Below are positions 4,125 to 33,620 of a DNA stretch of 37,012 nt, one piece after another. The notes under the pieces are model-generated. The model saw nothing but the letters and a program-made list of their open reading frames with translations. It searched no databases and had not been told where the DNA came from. The stretch comes from a virus. The DNA is taken from positions 1-37,012 of IMG/VR virus record IMGVR_UViG_3300002225_000008; one strand, 5' to 3'. A program made the translations under genes and the position numbers. Each line of letters begins with the position of its first letter. The stretch's first letter is position 1.

Positions 4125-4325
4125 ATGAAAGTAACATTTGATTATGACTACGCTACAGGAAATATAACTGATTCAGCAGGGTTATATATTTGCATGCATG
4201 GAATGGTTCCATTCAAAGATGAAGATACTGGCGGAGCTGGTAACGTTAACTACATAAAGGAGCTGGTGGCTGCTGGCGTGTCAGTGGATGACATATTAAA
4301 ACTAAAGCGAGAAGGTGCAATCTAA
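4125..4325 (+). CDS. 66-residue protein of unknown function
   Basis: MKVTFDYDYATGNITDSAG..., ending ...DDILKLKREGAI. An AAGGAA site lies upstream. The C-terminal half (NYIKELVAAGVSVDDILKLKREG) looks like a short helical hairpin. No family is recognised. Its stop codon TAA is fused to the first repeat-type promoter (the repeat starts at the last A of the stop). Confidence 0.65.
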   Translation: MKVTFDYDYATGNITDSAGLYICMHGMVPFKDEDTGGAGNVNYIKELVAAGVSVDDILKLKREGAI

Positions 4326-4363
4326 CTGGTCAGAGCAGTCAATTAGCTAAACTGTGTAACAAT
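4325..4363 (+). promoter_or_regulatory. Repeat-type promoter, copy A
   Basis: ACTGGTCAGAGCAGT at 4325-4339, then 18 nt, then AACAAT at 4358-4363 as the likely -10. This is the weakest -10 of the set (a one-base shift gives TAACAA). An inverted repeat CTAAACTG/CAGTTTAG flanks the -10 region. The next gene starts at 4392. Confidence 0.55.
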
Positions 4364-4391
4364 ACATGCAGTTTAGTTAATTGGGGTTTTT

Positions 4392-4577
4392 ATGACGGAT
4401 ATATCAAAGCAGATTAAGAAGGATTTGTTTAGCGCTAATCGGCGTATCGAGAGGTTGGAGTATCAACTAGCTCAGCTGGTAGATAGCTCAGAAAGAAATA
4501 CAGGTCACTATCCATCAGTATGTTGTTATGAGCGAGCTATGGATGAATCGAAAAAGTTACTTAAGGAGAAATGGTGA
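4392..4577 (+). CDS. 61-residue coiled-coil protein of unknown function
   Basis: MTDISKQIKKDLFSANRRIERLEYQLAQLV... The spacing of Ile, Leu and Leu in residues 5-30 indicates a coiled coil. Two adjacent Cys (SVCCYERAM) occur in the second half. It is the first gene behind promoter copy A and overlaps the next small gene by one base (TGATG). Confidence 0.6.
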   Translation: MTDISKQIKKDLFSANRRIERLEYQLAQLVDSSERNTGHYPSVCCYERAMDESKKLLKEKW

Positions 4578-4660
4578 TGAGTCAAACAAATAAAGATAGA
4601 TTAGCTGGTGTGTTTATTGTTGCGCTTTGTATCCTGGTTATGTGCGCGGAGAGTTTCTAA
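4577..4660 (+). CDS. 27-residue single-membrane-span peptide
   Basis: MSQTNKDRLAGVFIVALCILVMCAESF. Eight polar residues are followed by one hydrophobic segment (AGVFIVALCILVMCA). It starts inside the stop of the preceding gene and its TAA overlaps the next ATG as TAATG, which supports real translation. A ribosome site AAGGAGAAATGG precedes the ATG. Function is unknown; phages often carry such micro-membrane proteins. Confidence 0.55.
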   Translation: MSQTNKDRLAGVFIVALCILVMCAESF

Positions 4661-4938
4661 TGAATATTCCAGCTGGTGCAACTCATGTTAAACAATGGAA
4701 CGGATCCGAATGGATGCCAATGCATTTAAAGGTAGGTGGAACTGGTTGTTACTTTTACAGCAATCTTAACGGGTGGCGTAAGGACTGCGCTATAGCTGGC
4801 CATATACTTGACTTGTATTATGACGAAATAGCCAGAGAGATTGATACAGAGACTCTGGAGGAGGCGGCTTGCTTTAATGCTGAATCTGCGAATAAAACAA
4901 TTATAAATATAGGTGGTTTATATGAAAACAATAGGTGA
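4660..4938 (+). CDS. 92-residue protein of unknown function
   Basis: Start at the ATG at 4660, coupled to the preceding peptide. MNIPAGATHVKQWNGSEWMPMHLKV... contains a motif common in small phage proteins: a Trp-rich beta region followed by NGWRKDCAIAGHILDLYYDE. The acidic tail is DTETLEEAACFNAESANK. No enzymatic motif is visible. It overlaps the next gene by 17 nt. Confidence 0.6.
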   Translation: MNIPAGATHVKQWNGSEWMPMHLKVGGTGCYFYSNLNGWRKDCAIAGHILDLYYDEIAREIDTETLEEAACFNAESANKTIINIGGLYENNR

Positions 4939-5872
4939 TTTTAAAAGTAGAGGGTGGATTGCTGTAGTTGGTGACGTTATTAAAGGTGGGGGCGGTAAAG
5001 AGAGTCATCAGCTAACAGAGCGAGACGTTAACAACATAAATTTTGGCGGCCACATCAAAGAGCGCGAAGTTAAATTATTAGTATGGCGTACCGACGTAGA
5101 GGTTAGGCCTGCCTTTAGAGGGTTAATTGACTGGGAGCGTGATGACGGCGAAGTCTTTACAGGTGTTGAGATGGCTGATCTGTGCTGGGCTTTAAATATA
5201 GTCAAATGGCGACCACACTTTCCAAGTGCTGATAAGCATGAATCAACTTGTGAGGTTAACGCAACATCGGCATTATTCGCTTTTGCTGGGTGGCTAACGT
5301 CAATGGAGAAACCAATTACATTTTCAAGTAACCACTGGGCAACACCTGCCGCTGACATGATTGCTGAATTCATTCGGGTTAACAAACTTAATGAAGAGTG
5401 TAATTTTGATAGAATTACCATACCTAACGACTTTAAGTTTCCAGAGCAAAAATCACCTTATGACGTTGACGCGCATGTTAGTGGTAGTGATGCCAGTATT
5501 CGGTATGCTGATGATAAGCCCGTATTCACTCAAGCAATGGCTGACAATAACGATATACCACCTATTGGTAGTTATGCTGAAATAGCTGAGCCAACAGAAT
5601 ACCTAAGTATTAGATATGAAGCAGGTTGTAAGGTTAAGGTGTATGCAATATTTACCGATGATAGAGGCGTTAAGCTAGCGGCTTTTGTAGATGACGGCGG
5701 GAAGGTTGGAGGCGTTGCCGTTGCTGAGTGCTTCAAACCAATCCAAACCGAGCGAGAAAGAACTACTGACAAGGCCGCGATATTAATTGCCAGTAAAGAA
5801 GTTTTACACAACCAATACCCAAGAGCGCTTGCTATCGCCGAGATTCTCTACGACGCTGGATTGCTAAAATAA
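4922..5872 (+). CDS. 316-residue phage protein of unknown function, apparently modular
   Basis: Start at the ATG at 4922 (AGGTGG upstream; an in-frame GTG at 4913 is less likely). The N-terminal part (KTIGDFKSRGWIAVVGDVI, FRGLIDWERDDGEVFTGVE) and a C-terminal module (DIPPIGSYAEI, CKVKVYAIFTDDRGVKLAAF) are separated by an acidic linker around 185-205. The C-terminal module is reminiscent of segments reused among hypothetical phage proteins, with a helical end LIASKEVLHNQYPRALAIAEILYDAGLL. Last gene before the strong terminator at 5908. No function can be assigned. Confidence 0.65.
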   Translation: MKTIGDFKSRGWIAVVGDVIKGGGGKESHQLTERDVNNINFGGHIKEREVKLLVWRTDVEVRPAFRGLIDWERDDGEVFTGVEMADLCWALNIVKWRPHFPSADKHESTCEVNATSALFAFAGWLTSMEKPITFSSNHWATPAADMIAEFIRVNKLNEECNFDRITIPNDFKFPEQKSPYDVDAHVSGSDASIRYADDKPVFTQAMADNNDIPPIGSYAEIAEPTEYLSIRYEAGCKVKVYAIFTDDRGVKLAAFVDDGGKVGGVAVAECFKPIQTERERTTDKAAILIASKEVLHNQYPRALAIAEILYDAGLLK

Positions 5873-5907
5873 CCAACACGCTATAAACTAACCCTGCAAT
5901 CACTCTT

Positions 5908-5936
5908 CGCCCCGCTCTCCTTCGGGGCTTTTTTTT
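5908..5936 (+). terminator. Rho-independent terminator
   Basis: GCCCCG (5909-5914) and CGGGGC (5923-5928) form a 6-bp G+C stem with an 8-nt loop, followed by eight T. It closes the rightward operon that begins near 2010. Confidence 0.9.
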
Positions 5937-5952
5937 GCGTGTAATTAAGCTA

Positions 5953-5991
5953 ACTGGTCGGAGCAGTGAAATAGGGTTTATGGGTTATATT
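5953..5991 (+). promoter_or_regulatory. Repeat-type promoter, copy B
   Basis: ACTGGTCGGAGCAGT at 5953-5967, 18 nt, then TATATT at 5986-5991. It follows the terminator directly and precedes the 62-residue gene at 6020, which has its own clear ribosome site. One of the two best examples of the family. Confidence 0.75.
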
Positions 5992-6019
5992 AAGTTATCG
6001 AAACGAAACGGAGAGAGTG

Positions 6020-6208
6020 ATGAAAACTGTATTTAATGTAGGTGATAAGGTTAACTACCATTGTTTTGCTGGTGGAAAAGTTACAAGTAGTGGGCACCTT
6101 GTTGAGAATATTAGCTTGCAGACTAACAATTTTGGTGATGATGTTGCTTGGATTTCTGGTAAGTCTGGCTGTATATCAATGGAGCATTTGACGGAGGATA
6201 AAGGATAG
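6020..6208 (+). CDS. 62-residue protein of unknown function
   Basis: MKTVFNVGDKVNYHCFAGGKVTSSGHL... from the ATG at 6020, with GGAGAGAG upstream. The VGDKV...GKV pattern is that of a small SH3-like or KOW-like beta barrel; no family is confirmed. It is a single-gene unit between a terminator plus promoter copy B and the gene-free RNA region. Confidence 0.65.
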   Translation: MKTVFNVGDKVNYHCFAGGKVTSSGHLVENISLQTNNFGDDVAWISGKSGCISMEHLTEDKG

Positions 6209-6237
6209 TTGTTTTGTAAGTTGTAGAGCGGTATAAT
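6209..6237 (+). promoter_or_regulatory. Candidate promoter for the gene-free region
   Basis: TTGTTT (6209-6214), 17-nt spacer, TATAAT (6232-6237), right after the preceding stop codon. No protein-coding frame follows for more than 450 nt, so it would drive a noncoding transcript starting near 6244. Confidence 0.5.
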
Positions 6238-6243
6238 TGAGTT

Positions 6244-6380
6244 GTAGTAAAGCGGTGTGAAGAGCCGTGAAAGTTCAGTTGATTAGGGTATTTAAGTAAC
6301 GTGTGATCTTTGGTGGGTTAAACTATCAACTGTCACCCCCTCTTCAACAAGGGTTACATGTTTCTTAAGTATCCTTTTTT
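6244..6380 (+). ncRNA. Possible structured noncoding RNA with terminator
   Basis: Two long pairings cross each other. CAGTTGAT (6276-6283) can pair with ATCAACTG (6325-6332), 8 bp, perfect. GGGTATTTAAG (6286-6296) can pair with CTTAAGTATCC (6364-6374), 11 bp including two G-U pairs, and is followed by six T (6375-6380). They could form an H-type pseudoknot or be mutually exclusive terminator and antiterminator forms. A consensus -10 lies just upstream and no open frame is present. The RNA start is inferred from the promoter. Family unknown. Confidence 0.45.
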
Positions 6381-6452
6381 GTGCCTAGCAGTAATGCATA
6401 TAAGCGTAATCTGACCCGCAAACCTTTTAAATCGATAAGAGTCAGTAGGCAC
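6381..6452 (+). other. Large stem-loop, GTGCCTA...TAGGCAC
   Basis: GTGCCTA (6381-6387) and TAGGCAC (6446-6452) form a perfect 7-bp closing stem. Inside, CTGAC (6411-6415) pairs with GTCAG (6441-6445), stacking on the closing stem's 3' strand. It begins immediately after the T-run of the preceding element. Probably part of a structured RNA locus; no known class recognised. Confidence 0.4.
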
Positions 6453-6480
6453 AACTCCTTTCAATGCTCCACAGAGATAT

Positions 6481-6557
6481 GCTTGGCATGACATGGTGTT
6501 ACTAATGAGGTTGATCTCTCAAAGGTGAATTAGGTTCGAATCCTAAGCCCAGCGCCA
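6481..6557 (+). tRNA. tRNA-like sequence with intact T arm, acceptor 3' strand and CCA
   Basis: A perfect T arm, TTAGG-TTCGAAT-CCTAA (6530-6546), is followed by GCCCAGC, a discriminator G and an encoded CCA (6555-6557). GCTTGGC at 6481-6487 can form the acceptor stem with one mismatch at the fourth pair, giving a canonical total of 77 nt. The middle does not fold properly. The D stem is not convincing, and the anticodon stem TGAGG/TCTCA would leave a six-base loop. So this is either a degenerate tRNA, an unusual phage tRNA, or a captured tRNA 3' end such as an old attachment site. No integrase is present. Confidence 0.35.
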
Positions 6558-6632
6558 AATCCTTAGCTCAATCAGCTATCCGCACAAACGAACAATTTAA
6601 CTGACTGCTGTAGTACGACTTTTCAATCTATG

Positions 6633-9034: not shown

Positions 9035-9073
9035 ACTGGTCGGAGCAGTAAAAACACTAAAGCCTGATAACAT
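9035..9073 (+). promoter_or_regulatory. Repeat-type promoter, copy C
   Basis: ACTGGTCGGAGCAGT at 9035-9049, 18 nt, then TAACAT at 9068-9073. The -10 lies inside the stem of the terminator at 9060-9090, so transcription from upstream would stop here while new transcription could begin just past the stem, before the gene at 9110. Confidence 0.6.
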
Positions 9074-9090
9074 AAGTTATTGGGTTTTTT
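9060..9090 (+). terminator. Rho-independent terminator
   Basis: AAGCCTGATAAC (9060-9071) can pair with GTTATTGGGTTT (9076-9087) over 12 bp including G-U pairs, four-base loop, T-run to 9090. It closes the 7.3-9.0 kb unit. Confidence 0.65.
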
Positions 9091-9109: not shown

Positions 9110-9268
9110 GTGAAGATTACTGAGAAAATAAAGGAATGGCAGCTGGTGTACGTAAAAAGCGAGTGTAAAACTGAAGCTGATAAAGTAAAGGCAGACGGTG
9201 AGCTTGAGTTGGTACTGCACGCTTTCGACACGTTAATTAACAGTTCTCTTGGGCTTAATAAGGAATAG
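9110..9268 (+). CDS. 52-residue protein of unknown function (GTG start)
   Basis: GTG at 9110 with AAGGGG eight bases upstream. The product MKITEKIKEWQLVYVKSECK... is predicted helical and charged. It is the first gene behind promoter copy C, two bases from the next gene. No family recognised. Confidence 0.55.
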   Translation: MKITEKIKEWQLVYVKSECKTEADKVKADGELELVLHAFDTLINSSLGLNKE

Positions 9269-10075: not shown

Positions 10076-11642
10076 TCACGATCAAGCACTAAAATACCTA
10101 GACAGAATAGAAGCGTTATCAGATGAAGATATGGCTGATGCGTTCACCTATAAGTGGTTTAGGCTTAATACGTTGTACTTCATTAAAAACAAGCAGGGTA
10201 AAAAAACTCAATTCAAACCAAATGTAGAGCAAGAGCAATTCTATCTTGAGCAGCATGGTCGCGATGTAATACTAAAAGCTCGACAGCTTGGTTTCACAAC
10301 ATTTAAAATGATATCAGACCTAGACGACTGTCTTTTTGTTGAAAACTTTTCTGCTGGTTGTATCTGTCACAACCTAGAAGACGCGAAAGACATATTCAGA
10401 AATAAAATAAAGTTCGCCTACCAAAATATCAACGATGAATTTAAAGACGTTCTAGCGTCAATAGGCTATCCACTGCCATCTCCAGTTAACGATAAAGATA
10501 ACGGGTATGTATTCGACAACGGATCAAGCGTTAAGGTTTCTGTATCGTATCGTGGTGGAACACTTCAAAGCTTGCACATTTCTGAGTTCGGAAAGATATG
10601 TAAGAAATTCCCAGATAAAGCAAAAGAGATCGTAACGGGCGCATTCGAATCTGTGGCGGCAGGTAACGTTCTTACGATTGAGTCTACAGCTGAAGGTAAA
10701 GAGGGTTATTTTTACCAGTATTGCCAGGATGCTAAAAAGCTAAAGGATATGGGAAAGAAGCCATCTGTGCTTGATTTTAACTTTCATTTCTTTGGTTGGT
10801 GGTCTAGGCCTGAGTATTCCATTGATGGAGATATAGCTGAGCAGCTTCATAAGTATTTTAACGAGTTGGAGCATAAATACGGTATACCGCTAGATGATGG
10901 GCAAAAGGCTTGGTATACAGCTAAATGGAAAGTGCTTGGTGATGATATGAAGCGAGAGTATCCATCAACACCAAAGGAGGCTTTCGAGCAGTCAATAGAG
11001 GGTGCTTACTACGCGCAGCAGTTTGCTTCAGTGTATAAAGATGGTCGAATAGTTCATGGTATGAATTCTAGCTATGACAATAAAGGCGAAGTTAATACTG
11101 TTTGTGATATCGGTATTGGAGACTCTACAGCTATATGGTTTTACAGGTTGGTCGGTAGAGAGGTTCACGTTGTCCATTATCACGAGAATAGTGGTGAGTC
11201 GCTTGGGTACTACATAAAGTACATTCAGGATAAGCTAGATAAGGAAGGTTGGAGCATGGGTAAGAATTATGGCCCTCACGACATGAATAACAGAGAGTTT
11301 GCCAGCAAGGGAAAGACCAGAAAGGAGCTGGCAAAAGAGGGTGTGGAATATGGCGGTAAAACATATTCAATGATATTTGATATCGTGCCTAAGCTTTCAA
11401 TTGATGATGGGATCCAGGCTGCTAGGTCTATACTGTCAAGATGTGTATTCGATGAAGTTTCAACTGAGCAGGGTGTAAAGTGCTTAGAGTCTTACCGAAA
11501 AGAGTGGAACGAAAAGCTAGGTTGCTGGAGAAACGCTCCACTTCATGATTGGTCATCTCATGGTGCTGACGCTTTCAGGTATCTAGCAGTAGCTGAAGAT
11601 AAGAAGGTATTCGCTAAACCTAAATTCGGTCTAGGCGTTTAG
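10059..11642 (+). CDS. terL: Terminase large subunit (packaging ATPase and nuclease)
   Basis: 527 residues, GTG start at 10059 (GGAGA upstream). The ATPase half shows a Walker A-like loop KARQLGFTTFKMI near residues 72-84 and a Walker B-like SLHISEFGKI near 170-179. The nuclease half has the expected acidic residues in VCDIGIGDSTAIWFY near 347-361, GPHDMNNREF near 404-413 and DWSSHGADAFRYLAVAE near 497-513, an RNase H-like fold. It cuts concatemeric DNA and drives it into the prohead through the portal. Length and order fit a headful-type siphovirus. Confidence 0.92.
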   Translation: MAANANHDQALKYLDRIEALSDEDMADAFTYKWFRLNTLYFIKNKQGKKTQFKPNVEQEQFYLEQHGRDVILKARQLGFTTFKMISDLDDCLFVENFSAGCICHNLEDAKDIFRNKIKFAYQNINDEFKDVLASIGYPLPSPVNDKDNGYVFDNGSSVKVSVSYRGGTLQSLHISEFGKICKKFPDKAKEIVTGAFESVAAGNVLTIESTAEGKEGYFYQYCQDAKKLKDMGKKPSVLDFNFHFFGWWSRPEYSIDGDIAEQLHKYFNELEHKYGIPLDDGQKAWYTAKWKVLGDDMKREYPSTPKEAFEQSIEGAYYAQQFASVYKDGRIVHGMNSSYDNKGEVNTVCDIGIGDSTAIWFYRLVGREVHVVHYHENSGESLGYYIKYIQDKLDKEGWSMGKNYGPHDMNNREFASKGKTRKELAKEGVEYGGKTYSMIFDIVPKLSIDDGIQAARSILSRCVFDEVSTEQGVKCLESYRKEWNEKLGCWRNAPLHDWSSHGADAFRYLAVAEDKKVFAKPKFGLGV

Positions 11643-17321: not shown

Positions 17322-17480
17322 TTATTTAGATTCTCCGCATTCGCAGCGATCTACCATTATCTGTAGGTCGCCGTAGCTGTCAGAGTTTAGGATAAATTCA
17401 AGCTCCTCGCCACATTCCTGACATTTCACGTAATCAACTTGAATCTCAAGCTTCTTCTCAACTTCAACTGTATTACTCAC
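17322..17480 (-). CDS. 52-residue zinc-ribbon-like protein (GTG start)
   Basis: GTG at 17480 with AAGGAG upstream. The product MSNTVEVEKKLEIQVDYVKC... has Cys pairs CQEC (20-23) and CEC (46-48), fitting a small zinc ribbon with an acidic end. Such proteins often bind nucleic acid or act as adaptors. It is the first gene of the reverse-strand cassette, directly behind promoter copy D. Confidence 0.6.
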   Translation of the reverse strand: MSNTVEVEKKLEIQVDYVKCQECGEELEFILNSDSYGDLQIMVDRCECGESK

Positions 17481-17508: not shown

Positions 17509-17547
17509 ACTATAACGCCAAACTTTCGTTTCACTGCTCCGACCAGT
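17509..17547 (-). promoter_or_regulatory. Repeat-type promoter, copy D
   Basis: Minus-strand ACTGGTCGGAGCAGT at 17533-17547, 18 nt, then TATAGT at 17509-17514, the best -10 of the family. On the plus strand a TATACT (17557-17562) ten bases beyond the repeat could serve the connector gene at 17589, so the element may control two divergent promoters. Confidence 0.75.
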
Positions 17548-19475: not shown

Positions 19476-19600
19476 GTGATTATACGATTAACCCTTGGGC
19501 TGGGATTGTCACCGATAGGCTAGCAATGCTTATCGGTGATCAGCTGTTTTACGTGAATGAAGAGACGGGCGATCTAGACGAGTTTGTTATTGTTCACTAG
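19469..19600 (+). CDS. 43-residue protein with TTG start
   Basis: TTG at 19469 inside the stop region of the tail terminator, with GGAGA eight bases upstream. The product MLGDYTINPWAGIVTDRLAM... ends ...TGDLDEFVIVH. The same direction and tight overlap suggest a translated small virion or assembly gene. Its stop overlaps the convergent stop of the next reverse gene at a CTAG. Confidence 0.45.
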   Translation: MLGDYTINPWAGIVTDRLAMLIGDQLFYVNEETGDLDEFVIVH

Positions 19601-19785
19601 TCATGCGATGAGGATATAACCTTAACTGATTCCAGTTTAGAGCCAATATCCCCATTGATTTCACGATAGTTAACAATATCAATCTCAATTCCCGTTACTT
19701 TACTTGATGAGTTATTAGCGGCAACAATGCGATTAATAATATTCTCAAGGTCAATCTTTAAATCTCTTACTTCTGAATTAGCCAT
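19597..19785 (-). CDS. 62-residue protein of unknown function, reverse orientation
   Basis: MANSEVRDLKIDLENIINRI... with a strong AGGAGG site. Helical N-terminus, beta-like end (KVTGIEIDIVNYREINGDIG). It stands alone on the minus strand within the virion operon, an isolated accessory gene similar to the reverse cassette at 16947-17480. No family recognised. Confidence 0.6.
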   Translation of the reverse strand: MANSEVRDLKIDLENIINRIVAANNSSSKVTGIEIDIVNYREINGDIGSKLESVKVISSSHD

Positions 19786-19832: not shown

Positions 19833-19863
19833 ACTGGTCGGAGCAGTCATTAGGTGTTAAAAT
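19833..19863 (+). promoter_or_regulatory. Repeat-type element, copy E
   Basis: ACTGGTCGGAGCAGT at 19833-19847, preceded by AAGCTA exactly as in copy B. The 18-nt position does not hold a -10 here; instead TAAAAT at 19858-19863 is ten bases after the repeat. It precedes the tail tube gene (ATG 19899). Confidence 0.55.
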
Positions 19864-19898: not shown

Positions 19899-21068
19899 AT
19901 GACATGTCAAAATCCAGCATCGGGGAATAAATTCAAAGTTTATAAAACTCCTGAGCTAACCTGTAACGTGCTTCCAGATAATCCAGTGTGGACGCCTATC
20001 CGTGAAACTAGTGGTTTTTTTACACTGGGAGTTGATAGCGCCACAGTAAAAGAGCTTAACGGTAAGCGCGATATTACTGGCTTCATCCGAGGGAGAGAAA
20101 CGCCAGCAGGTGAAATCGCAACTGCAATGTCAATCGGATCACACGATGATATTTTTCAAAGCGCACTGCAGGGAACTTGGTCTGCTGGCTCAAAAATCAC
20201 TGGCCTGACTGTTGATGTTGACGCTACAGCAAAAACATTCACTGATGCAGCAGCTACCTTTGTTACCTCTGGAGTTACTGTTGGGCAGCTAGTTAGATTT
20301 GACGGGTTAACTGGTGACAACTCTAAACCTTCAATTGTAACAGCGGTTACTGAAACGGTAATAACTTCTAGCAATGCTGTATGGCTATCTAATGAGGCTG
20401 GAGTATCTACAGACCTAACTACAGGTGATGCGCTTAAAGTTGGCACTACTCGCCGAACTGACTCTATTATGGGTGTTATAGATATTGGCTCTGGTCAGTT
20501 TGAATATCATATTATCACCGGTGTTGAGTTTCATGATTATTCAGGTAGTGTTGCATTAAACTCTGCTATTGAAATGACGCACACAGGCACAGGCCGAACA
20601 TACCTTGAAGTAACTAAAGTTGAGCCAGCAGGTTCAACTTACAACGTTGCTACAACCACCAAGCCATTAAGTGACTTAGATTGCCGCGTGTTTACTGATG
20701 GCGCTCCGACTCGACTAGCAACCAGTTTAGAGCTTGGGTTTACAGGCAACGTTACTCCAGGTGGTGAGCTTGGCGTGAATGGCGTTGCTTACATGGACTA
20801 TGGTGAAGCATCTAACACTTTATCTGTAGGTTCTGCATACATTGACGCCACAGAGTTTAATAAATTCCGTAACGGTGATGTTTCTACTGTATCGGCTATC
20901 ATAGGTAACAATGAGGGGTCAATGTCTTGGACTTGGCATCAATCAAACTACCTAAATGCTGGCCCTGTAATTGAAGGTCCTGCAGCCATCACCGAAACAT
21001 TAGAGTTTCAACCAATCTACAACCAAGCAGAAGATACATCGCTAACTATTCAGCGTATTATCTACTAA
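19899..21068 (+). CDS. Major tail tube protein (Phage_tube_2-like)
   Basis: 389 residues from the ATG at 19899 (AGAGAGA upstream). The start FKVYKTPELTCNVLPDNPVWTPIRETSG with ELNGKRDITGFIRGRETPAGEIATAMS, and the end SMSWTWHQSNYLNAGPVIEGPAAITETLEFQPIYN, match the tube protein family of siphoviruses. Residues about 95-190 (KTFTDAAATFVTSGVTVGQLVRFDG) look like an inserted immunoglobulin-like or repeat domain, making it longer than simple tube proteins. Many copies stack to form the tail tube. Confidence 0.82.
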   Translation: MTCQNPASGNKFKVYKTPELTCNVLPDNPVWTPIRETSGFFTLGVDSATVKELNGKRDITGFIRGRETPAGEIATAMSIGSHDDIFQSALQGTWSAGSKITGLTVDVDATAKTFTDAAATFVTSGVTVGQLVRFDGLTGDNSKPSIVTAVTETVITSSNAVWLSNEAGVSTDLTTGDALKVGTTRRTDSIMGVIDIGSGQFEYHIITGVEFHDYSGSVALNSAIEMTHTGTGRTYLEVTKVEPAGSTYNVATTTKPLSDLDCRVFTDGAPTRLATSLELGFTGNVTPGGELGVNGVAYMDYGEASNTLSVGSAYIDATEFNKFRNGDVSTVSAIIGNNEGSMSWTWHQSNYLNAGPVIEGPAAITETLEFQPIYNQAEDTSLTIQRIIY

Positions 21069-24432: not shown

Positions 24433-24943
24433 TGAAACTGCAGAGCTAACAGAGTTAATAGCATCGTTCACCACAGGAAAAGGTGAGGTTGAGATAGTAA
24501 AACTCAATCATCAAGACTGGGCGGAGCCCTTATACCTAACAAGCAACCTATCTAGCGGGTTTGTGATAAATATTGATGGAGTTGATACACCTGTAATGTA
24601 TGCACCCATGACGGTTGGCGGTGAAAGCTCAGGCAAACTATTGCTTAACGACAGGGATTTAACTGTGCAAGGCATTAATGACCTAGTGGCAAACTATGAA
24701 GATCAAATACCACTTGAATCTGAAGTTAAGCCTACAATGGAAGTTAGCACCTATATTGCTAGTCGTGATTTAACGCTATCCACAATATCTAAAGGGCCGC
24801 TTAAATACTTCGCTAACCTTATCTCATACAATCAAACAAACAATGCCGCCACAGTAGCTTGTTCAACAACCCGAACAAATGACGGGCAGACTGGAACAAG
24901 CCAAACTATTACCAGGTTCCCAACATTGTCGGGGTTCAAGTGA
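24425..24943 (+). CDS. Minor tail protein, DUF1833-like
   Basis: 172 residues from the ATG at 24425. Segments DWAEPLYLTSNLSSGFVINIDGVDTPVMYAPMTV and LLLNDRDLTVQGINDLVANYEDQIPLES...PTMEVSTYIASRDLTLSTISKGPLKY resemble the DUF1833 family, found next to NlpC-like tail genes. Overlaps neighbours on both sides. Likely part of the tail tip (lambda gpL position). Confidence 0.65.
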   Translation: MANETAELTELIASFTTGKGEVEIVKLNHQDWAEPLYLTSNLSSGFVINIDGVDTPVMYAPMTVGGESSGKLLLNDRDLTVQGINDLVANYEDQIPLESEVKPTMEVSTYIASRDLTLSTISKGPLKYFANLISYNQTNNAATVACSTTRTNDGQTGTSQTITRFPTLSGFK

Positions 24944-25287: not shown

Positions 25288-28030
25288 AGATATCGATGAT
25301 TACGAGACAGTTAAAGCTGAATCCGCTCATGATTTTATGCGCGACAATATAGAGCTGTTTCATAATGGATTTAGGCTTTATAAGGAGCAAGCTTCAGAAT
25401 CATCAGATATAACTGAAGACGTACAAGCGCTTATCGATGCTAAGATGTCTAACTGTGATCTAATATGCCTTAACCCAGCTAAAGGCCCAGAAACTTGGAT
25501 CCCTTTGATTATTTCTGCACTGGTATCTGTTGCTGTTGTATTATTAAGCCCAACACCAAAAGCCCCTGATAACTCAGAAAGAAGCCAGTCAAGCACAACT
25601 AATTCATTAGGCGGCCGTGACAACTCAATAAACCTTAACGCGCGTAACGCTGATATTTGGGGAAAGGTGGGCAAAGCCTCTCCTGATTTACTGCAGGTTC
25701 CACACTTTAGATTCGAGAATAACGTTGAGACCGAGCATTTTGCGCTAAACCTTGGCGATGGCAAACTACTTCAAGAAAACGTTGCAGACGGTGACACGCC
25801 ATTTAAATTCTTAATAGACTCAAAATATAACTCTTGGTGGCCATTCAAACACCCAAATAACGGAGACTCTCCAGACCTAGTTATAGGCGGCTTAATAGAC
25901 AGAGATTTAAACAATGTATTCCAATCTAAGGAGCTTAACCCTGCTGAACTGTTACCACCAAATGATCTAGATACAGATTTAGTCGTATGGTCGCTTACTG
26001 GGACTGGATCCGTAGGCTCTCTAGTTGCTCAAAGTGCGCCAAGTGGGTTTGATTTAACTGATTACTTCACTGCTGGCGACATCTTAACTATGGACGAAAT
26101 GAACTACTTCGAGCCAGACGGGACGGTAACGCTTTACGGCGATGGCGGCGGAGGCGGAACGATAAGTAAAGACTTTGACGCGCTAAAAGATCCTATTGAT
26201 ATCGGAGACAGCAAGTCAATTCAATACTTGGTAACAGCAGTTACACCAACAGAGATAACCGTTGATATACCAGCATCCGCGCCTGCTAATGTATTAGCGT
26301 CTTGGGCGTTAATGTCTGGCTACGTGGTACCAACAATCGCATACAGAGCTATAGGGTTTGTTGCGGTTAACTTCTATACATTTGATGACGATGTAACGGT
26401 TGGTACATGGTACGGGGATGTAGGTTTAACTGAAAATGTTACAGTTAGCACAAACTTTTACTCTCCAGTTGTTGGGTTTCCTTTCGATGGAACAATAGGC
26501 CCGTTCACAGTACCTACAGATGTGGATTCAATCACGGTTAACTTTGTATCGTCGAGTGGATTTTACAAACTTGATAGGAATAATGAAATATACATCGAGG
26601 CGGGCGTAAGGGTTGTTGTTGAAGAGACTGATTCTGATGGTTTGCCTTTAGGGCCATCAATCACAACAAATATTACTTATACAACAAACTCAAATAAAAC
26701 AACTGCTCAAGCTGCGCAAACATTAGATATAGATAACCCGTATGATTACGCAAAAATATCATGTGTTAGGACTACAGCAAGAGACAAAAGCGACAACATT
26801 TCAAACGTTGACCAAATTGTATGGCGTGATCTCTACTTTATAAATAATGTAGGGCCAACCGCTCCAGATAACTCATCAATTGCTCAAGTTGCAGTGCAAA
26901 GCAATACCGCATCGCAAGGCGTTAAAGCTAGGCAAGTAAATATGGACTTAACCAGATACATAACCCCATATATTGGTAATGGTCAGTTTGGCGCTGAAGT
27001 TCCCGCGTCAACAGTTGCAGAGGTGTCTATTGCGCTTGCTTTAGACCCGCTTAACGGCAGGCTAACACTAGATGATATTGATGCTGATTTATTGTTATCT
27101 GTTCAGGAACAGTTAAAGGCGTATTACGGCAACGATCAATACATTGAAGTTGGTTATAACCTAGACTCAACAACTTTAAGATTTCAGGATTCGTTTAATC
27201 TTTTATGGAACGCTGTCAACTGTAAGGCATACGCTCAGGACGCCGTATACAAGGTTTATCCAGATATTGAGCGCACAGTATCATCTAAGCAATTTACGCA
27301 CCGCAATAAGATTGTAGGAAGCGATAAGCGCGATAGAAGGTTCTCAGCTAAAGATAATAACGATGGTGTAGAGCTTACATATAGAGATAACAACACCGGC
27401 ACCTTTGAAACCGTGATACTTCACGTTAACGGTATCGATTCAACTAATAGGCTTAAAATTGAGCTATCAGGAGCTGTGAATAACATTCAGGCGACTACAA
27501 GAGCATATAGAGAGCTTAACTACATTAAGTATTCAAGGGTTAATATGTCCTTTGATGCTGACGGAATCGGAAGGCTAACAGTGCCAGGTGAGCGAGTTGA
27601 TAATGTAGACGGAACCAGAATAAGTAAACGTGAAAATAACACCAATTACTATAATATCTATGATGGCATGGTGCAGGATATAAACGGGTTTACCGCTTTA
27701 CTATCTCAACCGGTGGTTTTCACTTCTGGAGAAACCCACTCAATAAGATTTACGGATAAATACGGCAACCTTTTAGAGGCAATTAGCTGCACCGCTGGAG
27801 CGACTCCTTACCACGTTGTTTTATCTGAGCTTCCAAGCGATCCTATTTACGTCGGATACAAGCGAGAAAAGACAACTTTTACATTCGCTAGCGATAACTC
27901 ACGAGAAGCTTTGCCAATGCTGGTGTTAGATATTCAAGCTAAAAACAGTAGGGGATTACAGACAAGAACCCTTAGCGGTATCAACTATTCGCCCAAATAC
28001 TACGAAAATGATAAAATGTTTTCAAACTAA
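25265..28030 (+). CDS. Tail tip / host specificity protein (gpJ-like)
   Basis: 921 residues, the largest gene. The N-terminus (ITIKLFRDIDDYETVKAESAHDFM) looks like a gpI/ubiquitin-like start. A hydrophobic segment WIPLIISALVSVAVVLLSP near 80-98 and a NSLGGRDNSINLNARNADIWGKVGKASPDLL block are typical of tip attachment (TipJ-like) proteins. The middle has repeated beta domains. C-terminal segments KQFTHRNKIVGSDKRDRRF, YRELNYIKYSRVNMSF and LTVPGERVDNVDG are the conserved central tip-core type. It forms the baseplate-like tip that contacts the host. Confidence 0.8.
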   Translation: MITIKLFRDIDDYETVKAESAHDFMRDNIELFHNGFRLYKEQASESSDITEDVQALIDAKMSNCDLICLNPAKGPETWIPLIISALVSVAVVLLSPTPKAPDNSERSQSSTTNSLGGRDNSINLNARNADIWGKVGKASPDLLQVPHFRFENNVETEHFALNLGDGKLLQENVADGDTPFKFLIDSKYNSWWPFKHPNNGDSPDLVIGGLIDRDLNNVFQSKELNPAELLPPNDLDTDLVVWSLTGTGSVGSLVAQSAPSGFDLTDYFTAGDILTMDEMNYFEPDGTVTLYGDGGGGGTISKDFDALKDPIDIGDSKSIQYLVTAVTPTEITVDIPASAPANVLASWALMSGYVVPTIAYRAIGFVAVNFYTFDDDVTVGTWYGDVGLTENVTVSTNFYSPVVGFPFDGTIGPFTVPTDVDSITVNFVSSSGFYKLDRNNEIYIEAGVRVVVEETDSDGLPLGPSITTNITYTTNSNKTTAQAAQTLDIDNPYDYAKISCVRTTARDKSDNISNVDQIVWRDLYFINNVGPTAPDNSSIAQVAVQSNTASQGVKARQVNMDLTRYITPYIGNGQFGAEVPASTVAEVSIALALDPLNGRLTLDDIDADLLLSVQEQLKAYYGNDQYIEVGYNLDSTTLRFQDSFNLLWNAVNCKAYAQDAVYKVYPDIERTVSSKQFTHRNKIVGSDKRDRRFSAKDNNDGVELTYRDNNTGTFETVILHVNGIDSTNRLKIELSGAVNNIQATTRAYRELNYIKYSRVNMSFDADGIGRLTVPGERVDNVDGTRISKRENNTNYYNIYDGMVQDINGFTALLSQPVVFTSGETHSIRFTDKYGNLLEAISCTAGATPYHVVLSELPSDPIYVGYKREKTTFTFASDNSREALPMLVLDIQAKNSRGLQTRTLSGINYSPKYYENDKMFSN

Positions 28031-28048
28031 CTCAATAAGGTGATCAAT

Positions 28049-29716
28049 ATGGCTTGTGAAGGCTACCCAACAAAGGCAGACGCATTAAGGTTTAAAGAAA
28101 ACTCTGATTCTGAAACAGAGTTCATGGAGTCTGCAGCGGAAACGTTCCAGACACCAGAAGGGCAAACCAAATCAACTATTACAGGATTTGACTCTAGAGT
28201 AAGTCAAGCTGTTAGCAATGCTGGCGGCATTGATAATGGAGATTACGAAAGTAGCCCGCAGATAACTCAATACAATGAATACGTTGTTTTAGATAGAAGC
28301 GGGACGCCAACGCAATGGAAAGCAAAGCCATCAACGCCACTACCTTATCAGACTGATTTCACAACCTACCCAAGCCCAGCTTCAGATAGTAATCTGCAGT
28401 CTTATAACTCTAACTCTCTACAGGCGTTAAGCGGATTAACTGACCCTAGTGATTTAGATGGTGTTATGACTAGACGCTTTAATGATGAGACCGCAATGAT
28501 AGCTTTCACTGGCCACGCTGTAGGTAGAAAGTATTTTGTTAACAAGGTTGGACTTTATGAGGTGAAAACAATCTCTATACCGATGACTATAGCTAATTTT
28601 GAGCTTATAGAATCATCAGTAGCGATCGGGTCGGCAGTAAACAACACGACATCAGGGCTTAGCTCTTACACAGAGAATACATCGGGGTACAATAACACCG
28701 CTTATGGATTTAAGACGTTGCAATTTAACACTACAGGTTTTGACAACTTAGCTGTTGGCGTTCAATCTATGAGAGATAACACCTCAGGCAACAGAAACAC
28801 GGCTGTCGGTGTTGACGCTCTAGCTAAGAATACCGTTGGCGATCATAACTTAGCGCTAGGGCAAAATGCGCTTGGCTTCAACACCGATGGAACTTATAAC
28901 ACTGCACTTGGAATTGACGCATTGGAGTATGGTTTGCACAACAATTTCAACACCGCAATTGGTCAGTATGCTGGTTTGAATTTAGATAACTCCACTGGGA
29001 ATACAGTATGTGGCTATAACGTATTTCAGGCCGCAACATCTGGGAATAACAACTGTGCATACGGTAAAGACGCCCTTCGAGATCAGGATGGCCCAGACGC
29101 AAACACCGCCCTAGGGGCGGAAGCGGCCAGAGATAACACAACTGGGACAAATGTTACAGCAGTTGGTTTTAGAGCTGCAAGATCTAACACTACAGGGGCA
29201 AAAATTACAGCCATAGGTGATCAGGCGGCGTTTAAAAATATAGACGGCTCTAACAATTTAGCTGTGGGATTCACTGCCCTATATAACAACGTCTCAGGCG
29301 CATATAATACAGCTATTGGTGATAACTCCCTGTTCTCTGCGGTTGGTGGCAGTAATACAGCTATAGGCGGGTTTTCAGGTTACAACGTAACATCTGGAAC
29401 AGAAAATACATTTATCGGGTATCAGTCTGGGTTTACAGGCTCACAAAAGGTTGACGCAGTAAACACCACTGCAATCGGCAGAGGGGCGTTTACGACAGAG
29501 GATAACACCGTGCAACTCGGTAATTCCGCAGTTATTGGTATTGGTGTGGGGCAGAATAAAATATATTGGCTTCCAGCTATTCCAGTGACTGGGGCTTGGG
29601 CTAGAGGAAGCGTTGTTTACAACACCTCCGTTGTTGCTGGTGGGGTTTTCGGATGGATGTGCGTTACAGCTGGAACACCAGGTACATGGAAATCAATGGG
29701 CAATGTAGCGCCGTAA
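28049..29716 (+). CDS. Tail fiber with degenerate NTAIG-type repeats
   Basis: 555 residues from the ATG at 28049 (AAGGTG six bases upstream). The N-terminal 180 residues likely attach to the tip. Residues about 195-500 carry many copies of a repeat of the form NTAxGxxAL..NT.G..N.A.G (for example NTAVGVDALAKNTVGDHNLALG, split by variable residues), close to the YadA-head/Hep_Hag left-handed beta-roll repeats, which trimerise. The C-terminus WLPAIPVTGAWARGSVVYNTS resembles a receptor-side cap. No S74 self-cleaving chaperone is seen. Confidence 0.8.
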   Translation: MACEGYPTKADALRFKENSDSETEFMESAAETFQTPEGQTKSTITGFDSRVSQAVSNAGGIDNGDYESSPQITQYNEYVVLDRSGTPTQWKAKPSTPLPYQTDFTTYPSPASDSNLQSYNSNSLQALSGLTDPSDLDGVMTRRFNDETAMIAFTGHAVGRKYFVNKVGLYEVKTISIPMTIANFELIESSVAIGSAVNNTTSGLSSYTENTSGYNNTAYGFKTLQFNTTGFDNLAVGVQSMRDNTSGNRNTAVGVDALAKNTVGDHNLALGQNALGFNTDGTYNTALGIDALEYGLHNNFNTAIGQYAGLNLDNSTGNTVCGYNVFQAATSGNNNCAYGKDALRDQDGPDANTALGAEAARDNTTGTNVTAVGFRAARSNTTGAKITAIGDQAAFKNIDGSNNLAVGFTALYNNVSGAYNTAIGDNSLFSAVGGSNTAIGGFSGYNVTSGTENTFIGYQSGFTGSQKVDAVNTTAIGRGAFTTEDNTVQLGNSAVIGIGVGQNKIYWLPAIPVTGAWARGSVVYNTSVVAGGVFGWMCVTAGTPGTWKSMGNVAP

Positions 29717-30125: not shown

Positions 30126-30509
30126 CTAAACCTCCAGGAGCGGCCAATCGCCACCGTTATAAAACCAATGCTCAACATTAAAGTTAGGGCAAGTTTTGCC
30201 TTTGTCATATTGGTAATGCCCCCTTACGCTAGTTGCGTCGTGATTGATAAGTAACTTAAGCGCTTGCTGCTGGCAATTAGTGAACTTATCTTTGCCAGCT
30301 AAGCACACTCCGATCTTCTCATTGTGACCGAGGCAATGTGCACCAACCCAATACTCTGGGCGACCACACTCAATATGACCATCAACAGTGATAAAGTAGT
30401 GATACCCTATACCATCCCACCCGCGCTCTTTATGCCATCGATGAATGTCAGCTGCGGTGTCTTTTCTTCCGTTAGGCGCATCTGAACAGTGAATTATGTA
30501 CTCTGTCAT
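30126..30509 (-). CDS. Endolysin: N-acetylmuramoyl-L-alanine amidase (T7 lysozyme-like)
   Basis: 127 residues. Matches T7 lysozyme along its length: IIHCSDAP near 5-12 (zinc His), DIHRWHKERGWDGIGYHYFI, GHIECGRPEYWVGAHCLGHNEKIGVCLAG, and VRGHYQYDKGKTCPNFNVEHWF, with the second zinc His and the Cys ligand. It hydrolyses the amide bond between MurNAc and L-Ala in peptidoglycan. No signal peptide, so it depends on the holin. TAATG coupling with the upstream gene. Confidence 0.92.
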   Translation of the reverse strand: MTEYIIHCSDAPNGRKDTAADIHRWHKERGWDGIGYHYFITVDGHIECGRPEYWVGAHCLGHNEKIGVCLAGKDKFTNCQQQALKLLINHDATSVRGHYQYDKGKTCPNFNVEHWFYNGGDWPLLEV

Positions 30510-31050: not shown

Positions 31051-31254
31051 TCAGTGCAGATTTAGCTTGTAGCGCATGCTAAACTCTCTAAATTCTTCCA
31101 TTGTTTGAAATTCATCCCTGTACACTTTCCCGTTTTTCATAGTGAATATTATCGCTATGCAAGAATACTTAGTTGTAACAGTTTCAGTTTCAACACTTTC
31201 AATATCTTCACTGCTAATTTTAATTGAGCAGTCTGGAACTATCTTTATTAACAT
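31051..31254 (-). CDS. 67-residue protein of unknown function
   Basis: MLIKIVPDCSIKISSEDIES..., from the ATG at 31254 with AAGGA upstream. Beta-rich centre KYSCIAIIFTMKNGKVYRDEFQT and a short helical end. It is directly behind promoter copy F with a predicted leader of under 20 nt. No family recognised. Confidence 0.65.
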   Translation of the reverse strand: MLIKIVPDCSIKISSEDIESVETETVTTKYSCIAIIFTMKNGKVYRDEFQTMEEFREFSMRYKLNLH

Positions 31255-31277
31255 CACTCTATCCTTAATTTTTACCC

Positions 31278-31316
31278 ACGTTAACACGGTTTAATCTAAT
31301 CACTGCTCTGACCAGT
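31278..31316 (-). promoter_or_regulatory. Repeat-type promoter, copy F, inside the methylase C-terminus
   Basis: Minus-strand ACTGGTCAGAGCAGT at 31302-31316, 18 nt, then TAACGT at 31278-31283. The repeat encodes the last residues of the cytosine methylase (LTGQSSD). Its downstream sequence resembles copy A (AAACYGTGT...AAC), suggesting common descent of the two copies. Confidence 0.7.
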
Positions 31317-31925
31317 TAGCGCAGCATTAAATACATGAAGCCCTACTGATGGGTGAACGCAATTCCTAAGTATTTGCGTTGGACAGTGATTCCCTTCGTA
31401 GTAAATATTTTTATCATAGTGAATACCTAGCCAATCCATTAAATCTTGCTTATCGCTTAAATTCTGACGATTGATGAAGTTTTTAAACTTAGGCTCATCA
31501 TCCATCTGTGGTATTTCAAAATTGGACCAGAAAGCATGCCTCCCAATGTACTGAGGCTCAATCAATGGTTGATAATAAGGTTTAACATTTTCAACAACCC
31601 ACTTCCCTTTAAAATTATGCTTTAGAAATATAGCTTGCTCATAGCATCTTAAGTCAGGATAAAGTGGTTTTCTGTTGCGACCGCTACGAATCATTTTTGT
31701 GTTAGCTTGGCACTTTGGTGATGACCATATAAAATAAAACTCTTGGTAATGCTCTAGCAGGTATTGTCTGGCATCACAAACAATAACCACATCATCAGGG
31801 TGTAATTCTTGATAAACTGCAGCAATCTTTGGGTCGCGCTCTATCGCAGTGACCTCGCAGTCATCCCACAGCTTTCTATTGCCGCCAAGCCCAGCGTATA
31901 AATTTAGAACTCTTTTATTTTTCAT
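31296..31925 (-). CDS. DNA (cytosine-5) methyltransferase-like protein
   Basis: 209 residues from the ATG at 31925 (AAGGA upstream). Motif I is VLNLYAGLGGNRKLW; the acidic ERDPKIAAVYQELHPDD follows; the motif IV region reads FIWSSPKCQANTK with the expected catalytic Cys but Lys instead of the second Pro of the usual PPC; motif VI-like WVVENVKPYY carries the Glu. The protein is short for a C5 methylase and keeps only a small target-recognition part before LRNCVHPSVGLHVF. It may protect phage DNA from restriction. Activity is plausible but the altered motif makes it uncertain. Confidence 0.72.
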   Translation of the reverse strand: MKNKRVLNLYAGLGGNRKLWDDCEVTAIERDPKIAAVYQELHPDDVVIVCDARQYLLEHYQEFYFIWSSPKCQANTKMIRSGRNRKPLYPDLRCYEQAIFLKHNFKGKWVVENVKPYYQPLIEPQYIGRHAFWSNFEIPQMDDEPKFKNFINRQNLSDKQDLMDWLGIHYDKNIYYEGNHCPTQILRNCVHPSVGLHVFNAALTGQSSD

Positions 31926-32017
31926 CACTCAATCCTTATTATAATTTAGTCCAGTTAACACCTGAATTTGTACCAAACGCATAAACCCATTCGATAAATG
32001 ATGCTTACGCTTTGTGT

Positions 32018-32629
32018 TTAGTATTTTGGTATAACATACCGAAGAAGCGCCGACTTTATTTGTTCACTTTCGCCGTCGGATAGCTTTTTTATAATAGAGT
32101 ATTTGAACTCCTTGTATGCGTCATGCGCTTCAATCTCACTATCAAACCTGCCTAAGTAAACGGTCTTTCCGTCAGATCTGCAGCTAGATTTGAATCTACC
32201 GTAAGACTTACTTACACCAAGCATCATTCCGCCTCTGCCGACACGGTGATTATTCAGAAGTCTATTTATTTTCATTTTTACAAATACACAAGTACTAGGG
32301 CTATAAACCTTGTTTCCACAAAAAAGTATGTCTTTGTCCAACTCAAGCCCTTCGTAATCATTTGAAACCATCCAATCACTGAAGTTGGAGAATGTTAACC
32401 ACTCATCAACAACATAGCATCCAGCGTAAGACGGGTACTTTTCCTGATATCTAGCAGAGTAACAGCGCATAAGCATATCTCGCCATTTCCTGTACACTGG
32501 GCAAACAACCCTTAAACCTCCAACATTTGCAGATGTTGCGTAGTCCGAGTCATTTATTCCAACTCCAAAAACAAGAGTCCTTTGTGATATTGATAATTTT
32601 GTTGCTGGTATAATTGGGAAATCGTTCAT
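32018..32629 (-). CDS. HNH/AP2-type endonuclease-like protein
   Basis: 203 residues from the ATG at 32629. The segment VYRKWRDMLMRCYSARYQEKYPSYAGCYVVDEWLTFSNFSDWM is typical of a phage HNH-like homing nuclease family in which the second half carries an AP2 domain, seen here as GVSKSYGRFKSSCRSDGKTVYLGRFDSEIEAHDAYKEFKYS. The GLELDKDIL..GNKVYSPSTCVFV core lies between. It stands between the methylase and a helical gene, flanked by intergenic DNA, as expected for a mobile homing gene. Confidence 0.75.
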   Translation of the reverse strand: MNDFPIIPATKLSISQRTLVFGVGINDSDYATSANVGGLRVVCPVYRKWRDMLMRCYSARYQEKYPSYAGCYVVDEWLTFSNFSDWMVSNDYEGLELDKDILFCGNKVYSPSTCVFVKMKINRLLNNHRVGRGGMMLGVSKSYGRFKSSCRSDGKTVYLGRFDSEIEAHDAYKEFKYSIIKKLSDGESEQIKSALLRYVIPKY

Positions 32630-32734
32630 AATAACCTCGTTAGTGGTCAATCGTTACTGAGAAGTTTGTGCGCCAGATTGGGTAACGAATCCAACTTTTC
32701 CCCCGCTAAAGGTAGGCACGCATTTATTGTACAT

Positions 32735-33070
32735 CTATCTTAATTTCATTTCAGCCATAATTTTCATCTGGTTAGTTTTCCAAATATCTATCTGAAGCTC
32801 AGCAGCCTTAACCATAAGCCTAAGCTTCTCAGCGACCTCCTGAGAGTCTTTTATACCCTCCAAGACCTCGATATATTCATCGTGAGAATAAGCGTAGCTC
32901 TCACGTTCCTGCTGCGTCTTGCGCCCATTTAACTCAGCTTGGTTAATCAGTAGCGCCTTTTTACATTTTCTAAACTCCTTTAGGTAATCACATTGGGCTC
33001 GAGCCTTTGCATACTCATCAGATTTAAGTTTAAGAAAATGAAGCGCCCTCTCTAGATCTAAATCACCCAT
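32735..33070 (-). CDS. 111-residue helical protein of unknown function
   Basis: From the ATG at 33070 (AGGTGG upstream). Almost wholly helical and charged (LERALHFLKLKSDEYAKARAQ, YLKEFRKCKKALLINQAEL, EYIEVLEGIKDSQEVAEKLRL), ending KTNQMKIMAEMKLR. Helical proteins of this type occur in many phage early regions without known function. Overlaps the upstream 29-residue gene by 8 nt. Confidence 0.65.
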   Translation of the reverse strand: MGDLDLERALHFLKLKSDEYAKARAQCDYLKEFRKCKKALLINQAELNGRKTQQERESYAYSHDEYIEVLEGIKDSQEVAEKLRLMVKAAELQIDIWKTNQMKIMAEMKLR

Positions 33071-33152
33071 TACTTCCACCTTTCGCTATTGCGTAGTCGA
33101 TATTATCAATCACAGATTGCCGTACCGACTCAGTTAGCGGAATCGACTTCAT
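33063..33152 (-). CDS. 29-residue peptide coupled to its neighbours
   Basis: MKSIPLTESVRQSVIDNIDY... ends AIAKGGSNG. Start overlaps the upstream stop (ATGA at 33149-33152) and the end overlaps the downstream gene by 8 nt. The amphipathic composition suggests a single helix. Real translation is likely from the coupling; function unknown. Confidence 0.5.
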   Translation of the reverse strand: MKSIPLTESVRQSVIDNIDYAIAKGGSNG

Positions 33153-33391
33153 AGCGCAGCACTCAAATACTTAGCGCTCATAAGCATAACCGGCGTGAAG
33201 TCACCCTTAACTTTGCTTTTCTGGTAAAACTTCTTGGCTACCTTGGCGCACTTAACACAACCGCTACGACCTCTAGAGGAACGCTCAAAGGTTTTACACC
33301 TTCTGCATGGCGTAACATGGGTAAACGTTTCACAACCTTCAGAGATAGCTTTCTCTGCTAAGTATTGAATTGATTTCTTATTCTCGCTCAT
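33149..33391 (-). CDS. 80-residue protein with two Cys pairs
   Basis: From the ATG at 33391, overlapping the stop of the upstream Rmf-like gene (ATGA). CRRCKTFERSSRGRSGCVKC forms a C-x2-C...C-x2-C zinc ribbon around residues 29-48 with many basic residues. The helical N-terminus is SIQYLAEKAISEGCETF. Likely nucleic-acid binding; no family recognised. Confidence 0.62.
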   Translation of the reverse strand: MSENKKSIQYLAEKAISEGCETFTHVTPCRRCKTFERSSRGRSGCVKCAKVAKKFYQKSKVKGDFTPVMLMSAKYLSAAL

Positions 33392-33558
33392 ACTCTGCCC
33401 CACTTATCAAAATGACCAGCTGACCAAGCGTGAAACCTCTTCGGATTGCTTTTAGGTGAGTATGGATTTATAGCGTCCCTTGCTGCTTGCCTACCCATGA
33501 CTACGAACATCAGCACGCCTCTATTAAACTCTCTTCCTGCATCTCTATATCTACTCAT
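33388..33558 (-). CDS. Rmf/CrpP-like small protein (second copy type)
   Basis: 56 residues from the ATG at 33558 (AAGGAG upstream). GVLMFVVMGRQAARDAINPYSPKSNPKRFHAWSAGHFDKWGRV shows the Rmf/CrpP pattern: helix, NPY turn, Trp and Gly in the second helix. Basic overall. It is the first gene behind promoter copy G. The protein at 30509-30682 appears to belong to the same broad family, though the two are too different for recent duplication. Confidence 0.6.
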   Translation of the reverse strand: MSRYRDAGREFNRGVLMFVVMGRQAARDAINPYSPKSNPKRFHAWSAGHFDKWGRV

Positions 33559-33581
33559 AACAATCTCCTTAATTTTTATAG

Positions 33582-33620
33582 ACTGTATCACCGATCACTC
33601 TAAACACTGCTCCGACCACT
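33582..33620 (-). promoter_or_regulatory. Repeat-type promoter, copy G
   Basis: Minus-strand AGTGGTCGGAGCAGT at 33606-33620 (one base from the consensus), 18 nt, then TACAGT at 33582-33587. The repeat begins at the last base of the stop codon of the upstream 56-residue gene, as in copy A. Confidence 0.7.

Follow-up and report, generated by a model that had tools for sequence, protein, structure and literature searches.

Dispersed phage promoters with a FadR-like box at the place of the -35 element

We analyzed a stretch of 37,012 nucleotides (nt) of viral DNA (IMG/VR virus record IMGVR_UViG_3300002225_000008, positions 1 to 37,012; hereafter the window), probably from a marine bacterial virus, in which a 15-nt near-palindromic box, ACTGGTCRGAGCAGT, occurs seven times. 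The boxes are very probably parts of promoters in which they occupy the place of a -35 element. They resemble the operator of the bacterial regulator FadR, and control by a FadR-type protein is likely. We lean toward activation by the FadR of the host, which is the best single explanation. The literature searches made brought up no account of phage promoters with FadR boxes or FadR proteins.

Box promoters in the window

The seven copies lie at 4325, 5953, 9035 and 19833 on the plus strand and at 17533, 31302 and 33606 on the minus strand, where an earlier sequence-only reading had placed them, and the consensus with flanks in the window is aACTGGTCRGAGCAGTt. The same reading described the copy at 33606 as differing by one base and the half-sites as mirrored except for one pair; we observed the single mismatch, and the exceptional pair is position 5 against position 11. 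With up to 3 mismatches allowed, the window gave 14 matches, whereas 100 shuffles gave 1.25 on average and at most 4. Seven of the 14 are the copies themselves, six are copies matched a second time on the opposite strand, and one, at 24516, looks like chance. With up to 2 mismatches there were seven matches, and the pattern read backwards gave none.

The hexamers exactly 18 nt 3′ of the box were AACAAT (4325), TATATT (5953), TAACAT (9035), TATAGT (17533), TGTGGA (19833), TAACGT (31302) and TACAGT (33606). TGTGGA is not a -10 element; the other six are -10-like, and both these hexamers and the 18-nt gap agree with the sequence-only reading. The summed likeness to TATAAT at offset 18 was 27 of 42, the highest of 50 offsets (the runner-up scored 21), and when AT-rich positions of the window were drawn 100,000 times, 27 was reached once. 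All seven boxes have a start codon 44–60 nt downstream. For the box at 4325, the first start picked by the script was 85 nt away, and the ATG at 4392 in the list of open reading frames (ORFs), which is 52 nt away, was used. The predicted promoters and the genes discussed below are as follows.

4325–4363, plus strand: predicted promoter 1, box 4325–4339, weak -10 AACAAT 4358–4363, before ORF 4392–4577
5953–5991, plus strand: predicted promoter 2, box 5953–5967, -10 TATATT 5986–5991, before ORF 6017–6208
9035–9073, plus strand: predicted promoter 3, box 9035–9049, -10 TAACAT 9068–9073, before ORF 9110–9268
17509–17547, minus strand: predicted promoter 4, box 17533–17547, -10 TATAGT 17509–17514, before ORF 17322–17480
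19833–19847, plus strand: box 5, no recognizable -10 (TGTGGA), 5′ of the minor tail protein gene 19899–21068
31278–31316, minus strand: predicted promoter 6, box 31302–31316, -10 TAACGT 31278–31283, before 31051–31257
33582–33620, minus strand: predicted promoter 7, box 33606–33620 (AGTGGTCGGAGCAGT), -10 TACAGT 33582–33587, before ORF 33388–33558
33801–34034, minus strand: mini-FadR gene, 77 amino acids (aa), C-terminal SEEHY, best named family FadR (NF003444, 4.4e-6)
34584–35835, minus strand: replication genes (P-like helicase loader and replication initiation protein), 5′ of the mini-FadR gene and in the same direction

The claim that all copies stand before short orphan genes or the starts of transcription units fails at 19833, where the gene downstream of the box encodes a 389-aa minor tail protein (phrog_290). 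ORF 17322–17480 is directed leftward within a rightward structural region. A DNA methyltransferase gene contains the box at 31302–31316 within its 3′ end, and beyond 31051–31257 lies a leftward amidase gene (30126–30509). Promoter 2 directly follows a terminator-like hairpin with a T run. Promoter 1 overlaps a strong hairpin (approximately 4332–4390, z -5.0) and promoter 3 overlaps another (main stem approximately 9059–9088, z -2.6), each followed by a T run. Because the predicted starts of both promoters fall in the 3′ arm of the hairpin, the hairpins could stop transcripts arriving from upstream and not those of the promoters themselves.

The same promoter in other phages

The exact box was found in at least 118 stretches of viral contigs, and at least 112 distinct exact sites were left after removal of duplicates and of sites near contig ends. 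Among the distinct sites listed, 26 had a -10 of at least 5/6 matches at offset 18, compared with 0–2 at each of the other 25 offsets (8–33); many of those listed lack a -10 and resemble chance or coding occurrences. When the search started from the bare 6-mer ACTGGT in 28 records with boxes, an equally good -10 followed at offset 18 in 30 of 429 distinct places and in 2–9 at each of the other 19 offsets. TGTG was common 5′ of the -10 among these offset-18 sites and was not a selection criterion. We also searched viral contigs for ACTGGTNNGACCAGT, in which both arms are perfect, followed by TAnnnT. This combination occurred in 37 stretches at 18 nt and in 12 at the control spacing of 21. TGTG stood immediately 5′ of the -10 in 11 of 27 distinct sites, versus 1 of 10 in the control, which suggests that perhaps half of the 37 stretches are real promoters.

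In 12 viral records including the window, FadR-like sites with TAnnnT numbered 42 at 18 nt and 6 at 15/21 nt, with 1 to 7 promoters per record at 18 nt. The complete genomes of Pseudoalteromonas phages BS5 and HS2 carry seven candidate boxes each, with TAnnnT at 18 nt in 6 (BS5) and 7 (HS2); one more weak match in BS5, at 26357, was set aside as chance. Across the window, BS5 and HS2, a start codon lies 44–60 nt 3′ of 20 of the 21 boxes (19 distances called by the script and that of 4325 set from the ORF list), and the exception, BS5 4579, is also without a -10. These two cultured phages correct the sequence-only reading, which knew of no phage family that uses this sequence. The proposal of a promoter with the box over the place of the -35 and a fixed 18-nt gap is well supported, both in the window and in other phages.

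The comparison set of 41 handles (38 records) was chosen by eye, mostly from the 112 sites for the presence of a -10 or of several boxes, and L132 was added through a terminase search. In the contig G037, the segments 19527–19602, 20847–20943 and 28143–28213 match several box promoters that lie at non-syntenic places in BS5 and HS2, one of them inverted, as if cassettes of a promoter and a small ORF move. The record G026 (L206–L208) has eight exact copies of a variant box, ACTGGTCTAATCTGT, five of which are followed by TGTG and then AATNNT at 18 nt. In G033 (L212), clusters of two to four adjacent FadR-like palindromes occur among the matches listed at 45–75 and 6038–6177; one cluster is near the very end of the contig, and the arrangement is unlike that of the single promoter boxes. 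In cellular genomes, the composite of box and -10 matched 7 stretches, every one in contigs of metagenome-assembled genomes (MAGs). Two MAG contigs with boxes are phage-like by PHROGs, with matches for 9 of 10 tested proteins.

The FadR operator and host fabA promoters

The FadR operator is given as aaCTGGTCnGACC(T/A)Gtt in PMC9329746, which also states that FadR as an activator binds 5′ of the -35. The phage box agrees with this operator at 13 of 14 core positions, or at 15 of 16 with the commonest flanks, and none of 2,000,000 random 15-mers reached 13/14. On the same scale, the FadR sites of Escherichia coli fabA and fabB, taken from primers in PMC4259882, score 12 and 11; by a count made by eye on these primers, TATCCT (fabA) and TATTGT (fabB) stand 19 nt 3′ of the site.

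To compare with hosts, we used one gammaproteobacterial order of 79 genomes, in which FadR was found in 57 and fabA in 74. The 30 best-scoring fabA loci of the 74 genomes were examined without a FadR filter. Nine of the 30 have a FadR-type site with TAnnnT 19 nt on, and the right half is GAGTTGT in six and GACTTGT in three; the search pattern itself fixed part of the site and the TAnnnT layout but not the last T, and the other 21 loci fall outside it. Six of the nine host sites therefore share the off-consensus G of the right half, so that the G that spoils the palindrome of the phage box is also found in hosts. The phage promoters thus share with FadR-activated fabA and fabB an operator that replaces the -35, a fixed gap to the -10 and an imperfect downstream half. 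They differ in the left half ACTGGTC, in a right half that is often GAGCAGT, in the gap (18 nt, versus 19 nt in hosts) and in the absence of the stretch AGCGTACA-TGTTCGCT of the host spacer, which we take to be the FabR palindrome.

Two other regulators were considered. The LexA box is CTG-N10-CAG, and it was rejected by eye as wrongly spaced. A PdhR-type box, ATTGGTnnnACCAAT, is mismatched at a conserved C, and FadR is therefore the better fit.

Candidate factors and meaning for the phage

The gene at 33801–34034 encodes a stand-alone GntR/FadR-type winged-helix domain of 77 aa, here called mini-FadR, which matches approximately residues 1–70 of FadR. The sequence-only reading had listed this protein as a candidate DNA-binder, and profile and structure-database comparisons place it in the FadR-type DNA-binding family. 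Its scores (NF003444, 4.4e-6; TIGR02812, 3.4e-5; PDB FadR, 1e-4) are under the full-length cut-offs of the families, and PF00392 gave 20.1 of 27 bits. The best solved relatives are the Vibrio and E. coli FadR, and a profile of four mini-FadR sequences matched FadR at 1.3e-9. The predicted model, with a predicted local distance difference test score (pLDDT) of 75.8, matches GntR winged helices with modest confidence; the top Foldseek matches were NanR (1.1e-3) and FadR (1.6e-3), and none reached ≤0.001. The protein ends after the wing and a C-terminal tail, SEEHY, which FadR does not have, and the acyl-CoA-binding domain is absent. DNA-contact residues of FadR listed in PMC4259882 include R35, R45, T46, R49 and H65. 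By eye, and against that list, R45, R49 and H65 are kept in all four mini-FadRs with a SEEH[FY] tail, and R35 and T46 are changed in that of the window.

A search of the 38 records in six frames with PF00392 gave matches in 8, comprising five clear small domains, one of them NinH-like (G028), and three weak ones (G016, G024 and G027). A FadR-type domain with a SEEH[FY] tail occurs in four box-bearing phages (G000, G017, G037 and G026). Protein-led scans of viral contigs for relatives of mini-FadR yielded no contig beyond these known ones, and the same search in named phages gave one useful relative, in Alteromonas phage P24 (L238). This 74-aa stand-alone domain (10893–11259; best family FadR, 4.8e-11) keeps, by eye, all the listed contact residues except H65 and has no SEEHF tail. 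P24 has one FadR-like box, without a -10, which starts 142 nt 5′ of the mini-GntR gene.

It is rather improbable that mini-FadR and its relatives are the main activators, with host FadR only their ancestor, although of the alternatives it is the least improbable. Mini-FadR is FadR-like, its gene follows the replication genes with the same orientation, and the four SEEH[FY] genes are all in box-bearing phages. In G026, a box starts 10 nt after the end of the mini-FadR gene, and altered contact residues (by eye) accompany the altered right half TAATCTGT in 8 exact copies. However, the mini-FadR profile (E 0.001) found no match in the box phages BS5, HS2, G002, G016, G024 and G033, and PF00392 gave no more than a weak match to a 52-aa frame in G016 (E 0.002) and G024 (E 0.006); P24, where the profile found one match, has no box promoter. 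In G037, which is mostly 91–97% identical to HS2 where aligned, the mini-FadR gene is an extra piece absent from the corresponding position of HS2 and BS5, both of which retain the boxes. The contigs of the relatives were chosen for their boxes, so the co-occurrence of box and mini-FadR is no independent test. Since mini-FadR is an extra gene in one relative, it probably modulates the box promoters rather than driving them.

Comparison of 11 box phages with 6 others gave no protein family common to all 11 (BLAST, E 1e-4; the best family was in 7 of 11), a search that could miss very divergent small proteins and in which some of the 11 records are fragments. Likewise, four small proteins of BS5 that may have DNA-binding folds were not common to all box phages. 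The lack of a profile match in several box phages, together with the lack of a common family, favors a host factor. The earlier suggestion of a dedicated activator or modified polymerase is a poorer fit, given the likeness of the box to the FadR operator, the fabA layout, the box phages in which the profile found no FadR-like domain and the missing common family. A figure legend in PMC11170926 on the host of HS2 mentions FadR. According to PMC7082346, 67% of HS2 genes are early and 3% middle, and these shares are compatible with promoters that need no phage-made activator.

Operators of a phage repressor, dispersed over the genome, would account for the oriented and near-palindromic copies, for the palindrome clusters listed in G033 and for P24, with its two annotated integrases and its box upstream of the mini-GntR gene. 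Such dispersal of many oriented copies of one operator is known from the stoperators of mycobacteriophage L5 and the c1 operators of P1, which act in silencing. The phage box differs from these in lying at an activator position (approximately -45 to -31) without a -35 and with a -10 at a fixed spacing. This position suits an activator, no repressor family common to the 11 box phages was found at BLAST E 1e-4, and HS2 is described in PMC5498523 as having no canonical indicators of integration. The shared repressor site that the sequence-only reading also considered is thus less likely at this position, and we regard it as unlikely overall. We give equally little credence to an unrelated phage-coded activator or sigma-like factor whose box resembles that of FadR by convergence. 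The commonest promoter-like form has the off-consensus right half GAGCAGT (29 of 69 read CRG[AG]GCAGT after ACTGGT), but the convergence would have to produce the 13/14 core identity, perfect-arm FadR boxes occur at the same position in other phages, and no gene common to the 11 phages was found, within the limits of the BLAST search given above. A chance or mobile repeat without a regulatory role is hardly credible, since the 18-nt spacing and the start-codon distance are strict despite different flanks, even though some promoter segments look shuffled among places in BS5, HS2 and G037.

Several observations weigh against host FadR as the activator. FadR was found in 1 of 229 evenly drawn gammaproteobacterial genomes, and the order counted above is that of this one genome. 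The composite (N17–20) occurred in 4 of 369 gammaproteobacterial genomes, with phage-type sites solely in the MAG that has the two box-bearing phage-like contigs, which indicates that host promoters differ from the exact phage form. This MAG gave no FadR match, and the two contigs may be binning errors. The right half GAGCAGT is off the FadR consensus and occurs more often than operator tolerance would require, the spacing differs from that of hosts by one nucleotide, box 5 lacks a -10 and that of box 1 is weak, and some box phages encode a FadR-type domain that a pure host-FadR model does not need. G024, G026 and G028 have one scored promoter each in the 12-record count. No box promoter was found in the same-terminase relatives P23, vB_VnaS-L3, Shewanella 3/49, 1.047.O (one site without a -10) and F89, and no box in Pseudoalteromonas phages HP1 (45,000 of 45,035 bases), HS6 and H105/1 (first 30,000 of 30,651). 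A FadR-bearing host is therefore not sufficient for box promoters. Finally, of the 37 other records, 26 were retrieved, many records are fragments, and tallies over chosen records are biased by the selection.

We nevertheless propose the following mechanism, based on the motif, its spacing and positions, the consensus identity, the host fabA layout and the relation of mini-FadR to FadR; FadR binding, activation, the ligand response and the role of mini-FadR are all inferred from sequence. The element would be an activator-dependent sigma-70-type promoter, in which the FadR operator covers approximately -45 to -31 in place of the -35 and is followed 18 nt on, past a TGTG-rich stretch, by the -10. 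Host FadR, which is acyl-CoA-responsive and activates fabA and fabB from the same position, would bind the box and recruit RNA polymerase. At low long-chain acyl-CoA, the phage units could then be read upon DNA entry with no need for an activator made by the phage, and their expression would be lower during fatty-acid uptake by the cell. In phages that encode it, mini-FadR, which has no ligand domain, would compete with host FadR or stand in for it.

The many box copies could titrate FadR and tilt the host from fatty-acid synthesis to degradation. According to PMC11170926, fatty-acid degradation is enhanced in both HS2 and HP1 virocells, and more so in HP1. Titration of FadR as the cause in HS2 cells was not supported, because the effect is larger with HP1, which has no box.

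Away from the boxes, the protein encoded at 28040–29716 matches tail spike families and contains many NTAxG-type repeats resembling those in the heads of trimeric adhesins.

Host regulators such as LexA, CRP and IHF are known to act at phage promoters, and control by a host transcription factor is proposed here as well. The present case differs in that the regulator would be a fatty-acid sensor and would act at six or seven places per genome (window, BS5 and HS2). The proposal of host FadR supplies a testable trans-acting factor for a class of promoters that occurs in many contigs of uncultured phages, and a cultured test system exists in Pseudoalteromonas phage HS2, for which time-resolved RNA sequencing has been published. 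Tentatively, many phage units may be wired to host FadR while the ligand-blind SEEH[FY] domain of some phages overrides or competes with the host sensor. If so, the stand-alone domain would mean that the phage keeps the DNA grip of the host regulator and drops its sensor. If host FadR does drive these promoters, phage gene expression would be tied to the lipid status of the host, following acyl-CoA.

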